Shown here one piece after another: positions 10,944 through 41,415 of a stretch of DNA of 64,000 bases (positions are counted from its first letter, which is position 1; the number at the start of each line of letters is the position of its first letter). Under the pieces are notes generated by a model. That model was not told the origin of the DNA. It saw only the letters and a program-made list of their open reading frames with translations, and made no database searches. The position numbers and the translations under genes were made by a program. The stretch is taken from contig JAMPAI010000012.1 of NCBI GenBank assembly GCA_023667315.1, positions 1 to 64,000 of the forward strand. Direction: 5' to 3'. This DNA is from Ruminococcus flavefaciens. Lineage in GTDB: Bacteria > Bacteroidota > Bacteroidia > Bacteroidales > P3.

Positions 10944-10968
10944 GTATCTTCAGCGAAGCTCAAGATAC
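10944..10968. repeat. small hairpin
   Basis: GTATCTT (10944-10950) and AAGATAC (10962-10968) form a perfect 7-bp stem with an inner AGC/GCT pairing. It directly precedes the partial palindromic element at 10969-11008. There is no clear terminator U-tract on either strand. Confidence 0.4.
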
Positions 10969-11008
10969 AAAAAGCGTTTTGGAGGGGCGATCTGCTTCGT
11001 TGCCGGCC
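10969..11008 (+). repeat. partial copy of the palindromic element (fragment C)
   Basis: This resembles the left part of the palindromic element found complete at 41119-41247: AAAGCGTTTTGGA, then GGCGATCTGC, then CGTTG. The right half and the central CGTAC hairpin are absent, so it looks like a decayed or truncated copy. It lies between the divergent promoters of the acyl-CoA ligase and glycosyltransferase genes. Confidence 0.6.
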
Positions 11009-11022
11009 TTGACACCTTTTTA

Positions 11023-11054
11023 TTTGGTGAAGATTACATCTTTTAGTACTATTG
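11023..11054 (+). promoter_or_regulatory. probable promoter of the glycosyltransferase gene
   Basis: TTTG at 11023-11026, 20 bases, then TACTATTG at 11047-11054, which differs by one base from TAnnTTTG. This leaves a leader of about 27 bases to the ATG at 11088 and supports that start over the TTG at 11052. Confidence 0.5.
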
Positions 11055-11087
11055 CACTATGGTTTCATCTGTGCAAAGTCAATCATA

Positions 11088-14826: not shown

Positions 14827-14862
14827 TATGCAGGTGAGGTAAAATTGATTTTGGGCGGTGAG
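14793..14862 (-). repeat. direct repeat, copy 2 of terminator plus palindrome arm
   Basis: About 70 bp nearly identical to 14940-15008: terminator hairpin, spacer TATGCAGGTGAGG and the arm GTAAAATTGATTTTGG. The two copies differ by one A in the loop and one G/A. The unit, including part of the palindromic element arm, has been duplicated; the 77 bases between the copies (14863-14939) show no gene. Confidence 0.85.
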
Positions 14863-14938
14863 GTAAATCACGAACCCAAAATCGAAGGAATAAAAAGTGT
14901 TGAGAGTGTGAGCCACAAGACGAGAATCCCAAGCCAGC

Positions 14939-14972: not shown

Positions 14973-15008
14973 TATGCAGGTGGGGTAAAATTGATTTTGG
15001 GCGGTGAG
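14940..15008 (-). repeat. direct repeat, copy 1 of terminator plus palindrome arm
   Basis: Partner of the repeat at 14793-14862. This copy adjoins the complete palindromic element and is probably the source copy. Confidence 0.8.
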
Positions 15009-15111
15009 ATGCGACCCGCAGGCCGAAGGTGGTGAGGGAGCGTACTGATGTACGTGACCGAACCTACCGAGGACTGCGGGGAAGCAGATTACCGTCCAAA
15101 ATCAATTTTAC
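14985..15111 (-). repeat. palindromic element, complete copy A (3' end of rpsA)
   Basis: Perfect 16-bp outer arms (14985-15000 and 15096-15111) enclose about 95 bp. Read on the minus strand it shares with copy B at 41119-41247 the blocks TTTTGGACGG, ATCTGC, GGTCACGTAC, GTACGCTCCC, GCATCTCACC and CCAAAA in the same order and spacing. The centre is a CGTAC / GTACG hairpin with a four-base loop. The rpsA stop codon (15108-15110) lies inside the outer arm, so the arm contains gene-specific sequence (AAGTAAAATTGA) that is repeated in inverted orientation on the far side. Confidence 0.85.
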
Positions 15112-16919
15112 TTGTTCTTTTCGGCGGCTTCCATCGCGTCCTTCAAGTTCGAAAGCGCCTCAATATCCCCCAACGTCGTCTTTTCGGACGAATCGTTGAG
15201 TTTCTTGACGGCCTTGGCGGTGTTGTCGGCGTTCTTACGGTTTTCGTTTTCCGTCTTGGCGCGTTCTTCAGCCGCTTCTTCCTGGTGGATACGCATGTGG
15301 GAAACCACAATACGCTTGTTTTCCTTGCTGAACTCGATTACCTTGAAGTCGGCCTGTTCCTCAACCTTAAGGTTGGAACCGTCGGCCTTCACCATGTGGC
15401 GGTTGGGGCAGAAGCCTTCCACGCCGTAAGGCAGAACGATAACGCCGCCCTTGTCGTTGGCCGAGGCAACCGTACCCTTCTGGATGCTGCCCACGGAGAA
15501 CAAGGTTTCGTAAACGTCCCAGGGATTTTCTTCGAGTTGCTTGTGGCCGAGGCTCAAGCGACGGTTTTCAACATCGATATCCAATACGATGACGTTGATC
15601 TTTTCGCCGATCTTGGTGAATTCGGCCGGGTGCTTGATCTTCTTGGACCAGCTCAGGTCGGAGATATGGATCAGGCCGTCGATGCCTTCTTCCAGTTCCA
15701 CGAAAATACCGAAGTTGGTGAAGTTGCGCACCGTAGCCGTGTGACGCGAGCTGACCGGGTATTTTTCGGCGATGTGCTGCCAGGGATCAGGCGTAAGCTG
15801 CTTGATACCGAGCGACATCTTGCGTTCGTCGCGGTCGAGGGTCAGGATAACGGCTTCCACTTCGTCGCCCACCTTAAGGAATTCCTGAGCCGAACGCAGG
15901 TGCTGCGACCAGGACATTTCCGAAACGTGGATAAGGCCTTCCACACCGGGAATGATTTCCACGAAAGCGCCGTAGTCGGCCAAAACGACCACCTTGCCCT
16001 TTACCTTGTCGCCCACCTTCAACTCGGGGTCGAGCGAATCCCAGGGATGCGGGGTCAGCTGCTTGAGACCGAGCGCGATACGTTTCTTGTTTTCGTCGAA
16101 ATCCAAGATAACCACGTTGATCTTTTCGTCCAGCTTCACCACTTCTTCGGGGTGGTTTACGCGGCCCCAACTCAAGTCGGTGATGTGGATCAAGCCATCT
16201 ACGCCGCCCAAATCGACGAACACACCGTAGGAGGTGATGTTCTTGACGGTGCCTTCCAGAACCTGTCCCTTTTCGAGCTTGGACATGATTTCGGCCTTCT
16301 GCTGTTCGATTTCGTCTTCGATAAGCGCCTTGTGCGAAACCACCACGTTCTTGTATTCGTGATTGATCTTCACAACCTTGAATTCCATCGTCTTGTTTAC
16401 GAACACATCGTAGTCGCGGATGGGCTTCACGTCGATCTGGGAACCGGGCAGGAAGGATTCGATGCCGAATACGTCCACAATCAAGCCGCCTTTGGTACGG
16501 CTCTTAACGTAACCGTTGATGATTTCCTGATTGTCGTAGGCTTCGTTGATGCGTTCCCAAGACTTGAGGATGCGCGCTTTCTTGTGGGAGAGCACCAATT
16601 GACCGGTGGCGTCTTCCTGGCTTTCCACATAGACTTCCACCTTGTCGCCGGGCTTGAGGTCGGGATTGTAGCGGAATTCGGAAACGGGAATGATGCCGTC
16701 GGACTTGTAGCCGATGTTCACCACCACTTCGCGGTTGTTCTTGGAAACGACAAAGCCTTCTATAACCTGTTGGTCGGCAATTTGTTTGAGCGTATTGCCA
16801 TACTGTTCGTCAAGCGGGCTCTGATTGGCGTCCTTTTCTTTTTCCTTTTTGATCTGGTGATGAGAAAGGGAATCCCAATCGAATTCTTCGATTCCTGTTT
16901 TAGCAAATTCGTTTGCCAT
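15108..16919 (-). CDS. rpsA: 30S ribosomal protein S1
   Basis: A 603-residue protein made of consecutive S1 RNA-binding domains, recognisable by repeated motifs such as GFVVSKNNREVVVNIGYKSD, GYVKSRTKGGLIVDV, GTVKNITSYGVFVDLGG and VRNFTNFGIFVELEEGIDGL, each with HISDLSW or similar. S1 helps load mRNA on the ribosome. Six repeats and a charged C-terminal tail (EEAAEERAKTENENRKNADN) fit a typical Bacteroidetes S1. The start at 16919 (MANEFAKTGIEEFDWDSL) is chosen over an upstream in-frame ATG at 16940. The leader is about 120 bases, which would allow the autogenous control known for S1 in other bacteria. Confidence 0.95.
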   Translation of the reverse strand: MANEFAKTGIEEFDWDSLSHHQIKKEKEKDANQSPLDEQYGNTLKQIADQQVIEGFVVSKNNREVVVNIGYKSDGIIPVSEFRYNPDLKPGDKVEVYVESQEDATGQLVLSHKKARILKSWERINEAYDNQEIINGYVKSRTKGGLIVDVFGIESFLPGSQIDVKPIRDYDVFVNKTMEFKVVKINHEYKNVVVSHKALIEDEIEQQKAEIMSKLEKGQVLEGTVKNITSYGVFVDLGGVDGLIHITDLSWGRVNHPEEVVKLDEKINVVILDFDENKKRIALGLKQLTPHPWDSLDPELKVGDKVKGKVVVLADYGAFVEIIPGVEGLIHVSEMSWSQHLRSAQEFLKVGDEVEAVILTLDRDERKMSLGIKQLTPDPWQHIAEKYPVSSRHTATVRNFTNFGIFVELEEGIDGLIHISDLSWSKKIKHPAEFTKIGEKINVIVLDIDVENRRLSLGHKQLEENPWDVYETLFSVGSIQKGTVASANDKGGVIVLPYGVEGFCPNRHMVKADGSNLKVEEQADFKVIEFSKENKRIVVSHMRIHQEEAAEERAKTENENRKNADNTAKAVKKLNDSSEKTTLGDIEALSNLKDAMEAAEKNK

Positions 16920-17040
16920 TAGGGTAAAAAATTGCGACATGCCTGGCGCGGAATCCGGTGCACGTTCGGCAGCCTGTGTTGTTTAATTGGTTAATTGTGA
17001 ACCCGTACCGGATCCGAAACCACGGGCTCGTAAAGGGTCG

Positions 17041-39876: not shown

Positions 39877-40759
39877 GTCGTTGACGCAAAATTCCTTATT
39901 TATACAGGACTGGTGGTGGGAGGCTGTTTGCCCCTCCCAAGAACGGATGATACTGAAAACGGAGGGCGGTGCACGTTGGAATATGGCCTGCATCCGTCGC
40001 TTAGGCATGTTCAGCCTCTGCGCGATGCCGCCGCTGACCCAGCACGCCGGGCCTTATCTTTCCGACAGAAGCGATTTCATCAAGATGCTCGCCCAAATTC
40101 CCCCAAAGCGGCAAATCTGCATAAATGTAGGTTTCGCATTGAATGAAGAAGAATGCCGTTTTGCCGCAAAACAGGGAATGAAGGTCGTAAGGAGGCAGAG
40201 TCACCGCCTGGAAGACCTCTCTGACCTGGAGGCAGTTTACCGCAACGTCAAACCGCCACGGCAACGGCAGATACGTAAGGCCGAACGCCTGCTGAAAACA
40301 GTGGAAATCGATGATATCGAACCGCTTATAGCGTTGCAGACCGAAACGTTCCACCGGCAGGGTTTGCGTTCACCGTATCCACCGCAAACAGTACGGAACC
40401 TATACCGGGCCATACAACAGCATGATGCCGGCCGGCTGATTGCGCTTGCCGATGCCCAAGACCGGATTATGGCCTGCGGGTTGTTCGTGCACGACGACAC
40501 CACCTGCTATAGTCTGACCCACGGCTACGATACGCTTGCCCACGACATGGGCGCGGGCAGTCTCCTGCAGTGGGAAGGCATCCGCTACGCCGCTTCAAAA
40601 AATCTTGTATTTGATTTTGAAGGTTCTAATATAGAATCGATTGCGCAATTTAATTCAAGTTTCGGTGCAATACCTGTAACGTACTCCCGGATAGAACGCC
40701 ACACTACGTTTTTTCGCGTCGGCGAGCGGGTATGGCGCTTACTAAAACGAATCCGATGA
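39869..40759 (+). CDS. GNAT/FemAB-like acyltransferase
   Basis: A 296-residue protein of the two-domain GNAT fold found in polysaccharide clusters (acetyltransferase 6/FemAB-like): PPRQRQIRKAERLLKTVEID, LQTETFHRQGLRSPYP, MACGLFVHDDTTCYSLTHGY, LLQWEGIRYAASKNLVFDF and EGSNIESIAQFNSSFGA. It probably adds an acyl or aminoacyl group to a sugar. It overlaps the glycosyltransferase gene by eight bases. No catalytic residue is certain. Confidence 0.75.
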   Translation: MNKSLTQNSLFIQDWWWEAVCPSQERMILKTEGGARWNMACIRRLGMFSLCAMPPLTQHAGPYLSDRSDFIKMLAQIPPKRQICINVGFALNEEECRFAAKQGMKVVRRQSHRLEDLSDLEAVYRNVKPPRQRQIRKAERLLKTVEIDDIEPLIALQTETFHRQGLRSPYPPQTVRNLYRAIQQHDAGRLIALADAQDRIMACGLFVHDDTTCYSLTHGYDTLAHDMGAGSLLQWEGIRYAASKNLVFDFEGSNIESIAQFNSSFGAIPVTYSRIERHTTFFRVGERVWRLLKRIR

Positions 40760-41124
40760 ACGGGCTTTACACCATTCTGCTGCTCTTGGTTTCCAACGTC
40801 TTCATGACCTTGGCCTGGTACGGGCACCTCAAACTGCAGGAAATGAAAATCAGCACGAGCTGGCCGCTGATCCTGGTCATCTTGTTCTCGTGGGGCATCG
40901 CCCTGTTCGAATACGCCTGTCAGGTTCCGGCCAACCGCATCGGCTTCCGCGAAAACGGCGGCCCGTTCAGTCTGGTGCAGCTGAAGGTGATACAGGAAGC
41001 CATCTCATTGATAGTCTTTACCGCCATAGCCATGTTCATGTTCAAAGGCGAGCAGCTTCACTGGAACCACGTGGCGGCGTTTGGGTGCTTATTGTTAGCC
41101 GTCTACCTTGTCTTTATGAAATAA
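40756..41124 (+). CDS. DUF486/DMT-like small membrane protein
   Basis: A 122-residue protein with four membrane helices (YTILLLLVSNVFMTLAWYGH, WPLILVILFSWGIALFEYA, QEAISLIVFTAIAMFMFKG, HVAAFGCLLLAVYLVFM) and the conserved CQVPANRIGF segment of the DUF486 family, related to small drug/metabolite transporters. ATG 40756 overlaps the previous stop (ATGA), preferred to the upstream ATG at 40732. The stop TAA (41122-41124) lies inside the left arm of palindromic element B. Confidence 0.85.
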   Translation: MNGLYTILLLLVSNVFMTLAWYGHLKLQEMKISTSWPLILVILFSWGIALFEYACQVPANRIGFRENGGPFSLVQLKVIQEAISLIVFTAIAMFMFKGEQLHWNHVAAFGCLLLAVYLVFMK

Positions 41125-41247
41125 AGCGTTTTGGACGGCGATCTGCGGCGTTGGGCGGCTTAGGCTCGCTTGGTCACGTACAAAAGTACGCTCCCGCGCG
41201 TTCCTAAGCCGCCCGCCTTGCATCTCACCATCCAAAACGCTTTATTT
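41119..41247 (+). repeat. palindromic element, complete copy B (3' end of DUF486 gene)
   Basis: Perfect 17-bp outer arms (41119-41135 and 41231-41247), inner arms GGGCGGCTTAGG (41153-41164) and CCTAAGCCGCCC (41203-41214), and a central CGTAC-AAAA-GTACG hairpin (41177-41190). It shares TTTTGGACGG, ATCTGC, GGTCACGTAC, GTACGCTCCC, GCATCTCACC and CCAAAA with copy A at 14985-15111. The left arm includes the last codon and stop of the preceding gene, repeated in inverted form in the right arm. Confidence 0.9.
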
Positions 41248-41269
41248 CCCAGCGCATCGGCATTTGCAA

Positions 41270-41297
41270 TTGGACGGCGATCTGCGGCGTTGGGCGG
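41270..41297 (+). repeat. fragment D of the palindromic element
   Basis: 28 bases identical to 41131-41158 (begins TTGGACGGCGATCTGC) placed 22 bases after copy B, without a matching right half. A partial tandem duplication or an adjacent truncated insertion. Confidence 0.8.
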
Positions 41298-41415
41298 ATT
41301 GGTTGCGGAATGTGCATGTGGATTGTTTTGGCGGTTTTCAAATTTGAATATAATCTATATTATGTTAACTAAGAAAAAAATAACTGCAAGACAAAACCCA
41401 GATTCCGGATCCCCT
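41298..41415. other. AT-rich non-coding spacer
   Basis: No gene, promoter or hairpin of note between the palindromic element fragments and the structured repeat. Confidence 0.5.

Follow-up and report, generated by a model that had tools for sequence, protein, structure and literature searches.

The two palindromes in the window, the 64,000-nucleotide stretch of DNA that was analysed, are probably ERIC-type miniature inverted-repeat transposable elements, non-coding hairpins 125-130 bp or so in length that a transposase would move in trans. The first-pass annotation had recognised no named element here, but a model of this genome's copies matches the ybhI-ybhJ ERIC of E. coli and the ERIC consensus hits the genus copies in return. 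ERIC was described in 1990-91 (cited in PMC2229807), and a 2024 review gives its host range as Enterobacteriaceae and Vibrionaceae (PMC10969869). The present family occurs in Bacteroidales, a bacterial group distant from these two, which suggests a wider spread for an old repeat supposed to be enterobacterial. In the literature searched (titles and abstracts, with few subscription papers) no report of ERIC-type elements in Bacteroidota was found.

Structure and copy number of the elements

Copy 1 (14985-15111, minus strand; model match 14981-15119 minus, E=3.2e-26) lies behind rpsA and copy 2 (41118-41248, plus strand; model match 41111-41251, E=1.8e-34) behind a DUF486 gene; both are part of the alignment behind the model that gives these E-values. 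The extent first assigned to copy 1 was exact, and that of copy 2 (41119-41247) was one base short on each side. Arms of about 20 bp form the outside of each element; inward of them come a box and then a variable inner stem, and a hairpin lies at the centre. The left arm of copy 1, on the stop-codon side, is GTAAAATTGATTTTGGACGG (15092-15111, minus) and the right arm is CCGCCCAAAATCAATTTTAC (14985-15004, minus); those of copy 2 are GAAATAAAGCGTTTTGGACGG (41118-41138, plus) and CCATCCAAAACGCTTTATTTC (41228-41248, plus). The box, ATCTGC..GCGTTG, pairs imperfectly with CCTTGCATCTCACC in both copies. The central hairpins, located by a core pattern search, are GGTCACGTACATCAGTACG (15041-15059, minus) and GGTCACGTACAAAAGTACG (41172-41190, plus), both of the form GGTCACGTAC-NNNA-GTACGCTCCC. 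The shared blocks and the central CGTAC hairpin reported at first pass are indeed present in both copies. The arms had also been called perfect inverted repeats. This holds in copy 1 for GTAAAATTGATTTTGG (15096-15111, with its complement starting at 14985), whereas the leading AA of the arm then proposed, AAGTAAAATTGA, is unmirrored; the perfect inverted arm of copy 2 is GAAATAAAGCGTTTTGG, one base longer than had been given. The TAA stop codons of rpsA (15108-15110, minus; ORF 15108-16940 minus, with S1 domains) and of the DUF486 gene (41122-41124, plus; ORF 40732-41124, PF04342) lie within the left arms, as had been observed.

Several related features are found in the window. By eye, a partial second element (TTGGACGGCGATCTGCGGCGTTGGGCGG...) is stacked downstream of copy 2 (41270-41305, plus), and a degenerate remnant with an arm and a box, without the core, lies downstream of copy 1 (14838-14890, minus); a matching arrangement is found behind rpsA in genome G004 (L149). 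Between 14800 and 14984, downstream of rpsA, there is a tandem duplication of a terminator-like hairpin (AACGCCCCGGAAA..TCCGAGGCGTTC) with its surroundings, accompanied by an element remnant. A weak model match at 10960-11060 (E=0.036) is possibly a degraded copy.

This genome has 24 occurrences of the core pattern and one of the pattern read backwards. The covariance model has 62 matches here at E<=0.01, and 97, 0, 27, 63, 91, 99, 31, 18, 1, 35, 0 and 7 in 12 congeners, counts that may be low because at most 150 candidates were scored per genome. The family bears out the earlier view that the palindrome is present in multiple copies, behaves as mobile elements do, overlaps gene ends and has arms that differ between copies yet stay complementary. 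The covariation check recommended with it was positive: over 23 aligned copies pairing covaries with a score of 0.397, against 0.171 in shuffles (0 of 500 as high) and 0.04-0.17 with slid partners. No Rfam family reached its gathering score on the element, in the window or at 18 other loci, and a known Rfam RNA was rejected on this result; a further Rfam search gave just three weak matches below the gathering score (best E=0.13).

G001, G005, G006 and G007 also have dozens of copies (e.g. at L154, L166, L227) of a second high-copy repeat, unrelated to this one, that starts AACCCAAATCGGTCATTAGAC. Different ERIC-like hairpins are found at the serC stop codon across several species (L180, L182-L185), and those of G001, G005, G007 and G012 have variant cores (such as CCTCACGTACC..GTACGCTCCGG) that are missed by the exact pattern.

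Kinship with ERIC and occurrence in other bacteria

Sequence homology to ERIC was found in both search directions. Run against 50 kb of E. coli MG1655, model R1, whose 23 source copies all come from this genome, gave a single match at E=10 or below, namely the ybhI-ybhJ ERIC, aligned end to end at E=1.5e-4; the ybhI-ybhJ ERIC of E. coli strain 120899 was matched at E=1.6e-5 in 3 kb. For the reverse search the ERIC consensus (PMC2759123, Table 1a) was run as a single nhmmer query against 102 genus loci. It produced 45 hits at E<=1 (10 at E<=0.01; best E=0.00032), 43 of them in the same orientation and covering 36 distinct copies of 87 distinct cores, and 0 hits in dinucleotide-shuffled genus loci. 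The other 51 of the 87 cores had no hit, and the individual hits are weak, the set being clear against the shuffles. A blastn search of E. coli genomes with a window copy found no match. The elements are, like ERIC, imperfect palindromes of about 127 bp with a conserved centre. None of the consensus matches extends to the ERIC ends, however, and the ERIC terminal repeats TATAC..GTATA are not present, the arms being lineage- or locus-specific. Because ERIC's own end repeats are absent, the element is regarded as an ERIC relative, hence 'ERIC-type', and not as ERIC proper.

An exact-core scan with one genome per species found at least 117 stretches, 22 from this genus and 95 from elsewhere. The latter, numbering at least 95, come from Porphyromonas and other Bacteroidota and from Clostridia and other Bacillota (three Sporosarcina records and one Psychrobacillus record among them), and also, among the matches listed, from Sandaracinaceae, a deltaproteobacterial bin, Bacteriovoracia, several Proteobacteria bins, Verrucomicrobia, Lentisphaerae and Coriobacteriales; since many of these records are metagenome bins, any one taxon assignment may be mistaken. 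After masking of the core, an HMM made from the copies in this genome still matched 35 of the 98 non-genus copies at E<=10 (24 at 0.1, 9 at 0.01); when the flanks were shuffled the figures were 1, 0 and 0 of 98. Against a broad distribution, 0 matches to the exact core pattern were obtained in an even draw of 394 other Bacteroidota genomes, in which the same order was thinly represented. Carriage by phages or plasmids was rejected, with 0 matches in 50,697 phage records, 0 matches to the exact core pattern in viral contigs, and one 30-bp partial match in plasmids.

At a number of Porphyromonas loci (L031, L032, L036, L039, L042, L059, L099 and others) the ERIC-type core lies within constant IS5-like ends (GAGACTGTTGCA). 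A second conserved hairpin follows the IS5-like end at these loci, and a T or TA before the end often makes a stop codon. The P. somerae and P. levii copies have ends of this type, which resemble ISPg4 and MITE464 as reported (PMC4596501). Palindromes with the core are also found immediately beside the 5' end of 16S rRNA, in antisense orientation, in records of Coriobacteriales and Sporosarcina (L027, L040, L138); the 16S was assigned by Rfam in L027 and by the leader sequence in L040 and L138.

Gene ends, arms and the target site

ERIC is said, from the work of De Gregorio in 2005, to overlap or adjoin stop codons in a single orientation, and the same was found for the present family. Spacing was measured in copies preceded by an ORF in the same direction, at least 80 codons long, that ends 15-212 nt before GGTCA. 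The stop codon lies 46-53 nt before GGTCA in 51 of 81 genus copies, which include orthologues and are not independent, and in 34 of 74 copies from other taxa (further away in 35 of the 74). In E. coli, the ybhI stop codon is 53 nt ahead of the same point in its ERIC. Convergent genes on the right side show no comparable peak, in a tally that counts 22 records of this genus among the other taxa. The end of a tRNA or tmRNA is found 52-54 nt before GGTCA in 5 of 49 loci scanned (L001, L018, L121, L256, L268). In several species of the genus an element or a remnant comes immediately after the tmRNA 3' end (L018 and L268, called by ARAGORN; L306 and L051, called by matching 3' sequence).

ERIC is reported to insert at TA with a TA target-site duplication (PMC2229807, Table 1; PMC6267812), and an IS630-type transposase has been suggested as its mover (PMC6267812). 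TA is seen at the outer end of the arm in the genus copies, and symmetric TA..TA flanks are found in 28 of 100 genus copies and 10 of 98 other copies. As TA is self-complementary, its duplication would itself lengthen the palindrome over a TAA or TAG stop codon. Insertion probably takes place at TA, by which TAA and TAG stops would be regenerated and the palindrome extended over the stop codon. TA alone fails to explain the stop-codon rule, since TGA is the stop at the fixed spacing in 19 of 34 non-genus copies, against 2 of 51 genus copies. The relatives compared yielded no clean pair of empty and filled sites in which both flanks are conserved and a target duplication can be seen; apparent empty sites (ilvE in G002, frr in G004, nqrF in G003) may equally be deletion scars, and the argument is not rested on them. 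To our knowledge, the transposase of ERIC and its targeting are unsettled.

The first-pass annotation had further proposed that the tail of the host gene was copied, in inverted form, onto the far side of the element, by insertion or by palindrome extension. We now consider this highly improbable. Complementarity was measured in 52 genus and 32 other stop-abutting copies, with the register set from the element alone. At stop positions 3, 2 and 1 it is 75, 58 and 40% in the genus and then 37, 23 and 25% in the sense codons; the other taxa have 56, 47 and 34%, then 38, 31 and 25%. Upstream of the stop codon beyond the first sense base it is about at chance in both sets. The stop codon and six sense bases are mirrored in 0 of 84 copies (0 of 52 genus, 0 of 32 other), and the stop codon and three in three of the 52 genus copies. 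These three copies count in favour of copying, as do the window copies, which mirror one (rpsA) and four (DUF486) sense bases past the stop codon, and short locus-private mirrored bases after the stop codon in G005 copies (GTC/GAC, GTT/AAC). The DUF486 value is above that of most copies; the tail of this gene, ATG AAA TAA, is identical in G002 and G009, which lack the element at this site. When arms were compared with adjacent gene ends in relatives, as had been advised, quite different arms were found on orthologous ends (L274 and L360; L289 and L367/L368; L298 and L371), which argues against copying.

At some loci the element seems instead to have supplied the tail. The gene at L004 ends in YEK*, against YHVK* at the element-free site; that at L011 ends in WYKIRQ*, where WYK is followed by no more than a single R or K ahead of the stop codon in 8 of 11 relatives and the other three run on; at L258 the tails of relatives differ. 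These comparisons with relatives suggest that the last codons and the stop codon came with the element. A precedent is a Coxiella element reported to supply the last 33 residues of a gene (PMC5896051). Tail copying is refuted in its general form and may have a rare role in arm extension. The arms belong to the element itself, as its own terminal inverted repeats.

Turnover, alternative readings and known systems

The core was found in both members of 27 of 28 orthologue pairs compared. With class cut-offs of our own, under which swapped left cores score 55-73%, the arms are kept and the core swapped in six pairs at five sites (L007/L159, L009/L254, L016/L247, L274/L361, L285/L362), the core is half-swapped in one pair (L012/L250), and six pairs differ throughout (L006/L249, L001/L317, L274/L360, L298/L371, L289/L367, L288/L366). 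The left arm and left core are retained in 14 of the 27 pairs, and in five of these 14 the right arm is at most 61% alike. Clustered changes that perfect an imperfect palindrome are the mark of template-switch correction of a quasipalindrome. At L283 the right arm is GTTCTGACCC, against GTTATCACCC in the orthologue L297, the latter being the exact complement of the shared left arm; three neighbouring changes convert the imperfect right arm into this complement. Another element, complete or partial, lies within 300 bp downstream of 14 of 43 stop-abutting genus copies and upstream of 1 of 43, although stacking on the downstream side only is partly expected because the upstream side is coding. 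Deletions within the hairpin are seen in L206, L150 and L196. A search with the G005 arms gave 12 matches, and by eye the far arm lies within 150 bp in 10 of them, which are therefore elements or shortened elements; an autonomous IS sharing these arms was rejected on this count, L353 and L358 being the two that lack a nearby far arm. Exchange between copies, template-switch correction of imperfect palindromes and selection for mobility would together keep the arms symmetric.

Alternatively, the elements may have been at these gene ends already in the ancestor of the genus and have undergone core and arm conversion since then, with little real re-insertion. The frr, serC, nqrF and rpsA ends are occupied in several species and cores have been swapped while arms were kept, as ancestral presence would have it. 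On the other hand, G002 and G011 have no model match and G009 has one, the arms also differ in six pairs, and at L360 what resembles the right arm of the older element is found downstream of the newer element. On balance we think ancestral presence with little re-insertion rather unlikely. A still less likely reading is that of a functional RNA structure at the mRNA 3' end, a terminator or a stability hairpin, selected in place and resembling ERIC by convergence. Strong covariation, the fixed spacing from stop codon to core across taxa, also behind tRNA and tmRNA genes, and the missing spacing peak for convergent genes on the right would all suit it, but the number of model matches varies from 0 to 99 within the genus, whole elements differ at orthologous ends, and the similarity to ERIC spans boxes and core, beyond what pairing alone would give. 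An RNA wobble test over genus and other copies gave no clear strand signal. In the variable inner stem G.T is commoner than A.C in non-genus copies (75 against 45), as RNA pairing would have it, and hardly so in the genus (56 against 49). G.T is the rarer of the two in the outermost arm (8 against 20 in the genus, 20 against 33 elsewhere), opposite to what RNA pairing of this strand predicts, so that such pairing need not be what maintains the matching of the arms. It is barely credible that the palindromes are of REP/BIME type and mobilised by a Y1 (RAYT) transposase. REPs are reported to cluster likewise close behind stop codons (PMC12306157). However, the elements here are 125-130 bp with an ERIC core, and Y1_Tnp PF01797 was found in 0 of 13 genus genomes, with the control positive in 5 of 14 known genomes; mobilisation by Y1/RAYT was rejected on this result.

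An ERIC-type mobile element remains the preferred reading, and within it the hairpin may have consequences for the host gene. The hairpin of Yersinia ERIC is reported to be transcribed and, by way of ribosome-dependent folding and an RNase E site, to alter how stable the upstream mRNA is (PMC2229807, PMC10969869), and REPs within 15 nt of a stop codon are reported to lower translation (PMC12306157). By analogy, the hairpin would be co-transcribed once inserted and would probably affect the stability of the upstream mRNA, depending on ribosomes reaching the stop codon. More speculatively, and with doubt outweighing conviction, the ERIC core could be an old, multi-phylum module, framed by terminal repeats that differ with the transposon family (IS5-type in Porphyromonas, TA-flanked elsewhere), that is repeatedly installed about 50 nt away at the same gene ends, where the terminating ribosome would open the outer arm; the element would then be a mobile and exchangeable sensor of translation termination at mRNA 3' ends. 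This Bacteroidales genus, in which divergent copies number up to about 100, and the records from several other phyla are comparative material in which a fixed core can be set against swappable arms, and with which it can be tested why insertion is tied to stop codons and, by presence and absence, which transposase is involved.

Of the known systems, REP/BIME palindromes are likewise enriched directly behind stop codons (PMC12306157); they differ in that REPs are 20-40 bp long as reported (PMC3733652) and often go with Y1 transposases, whose PF01797 domain is missing from all 13 genomes here. The ISPg4/MITE464-type ends of Porphyromonas, of the IS5 family, have their like in the GAGACTGTTGCA-type ends of the P. 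somerae and P. levii copies, but the Porphyromonas copies considered here enclose an ERIC-type core. The closest likeness is to ERIC, also called IRU or RU-1 (MITEEc1, MITEYpe1, MITEPlu5), which is also a multi-copy, chromosomal imperfect palindrome of about 127 bp and shares the core GTCAC(G/T)TAC-loop-GTA(C/A)GCTCC and the boxes CTGCGTTGG and CCGCCTTGC. In the one E. coli example that was examined it adjoins the stop codon in the same orientation. The elements described here differ from ERIC in their occurrence in Bacteroidales and scattered other taxa, and in outer arms that are lineage- or locus-specific in place of TATAC..GTATA, with the TA flanks partly visible.
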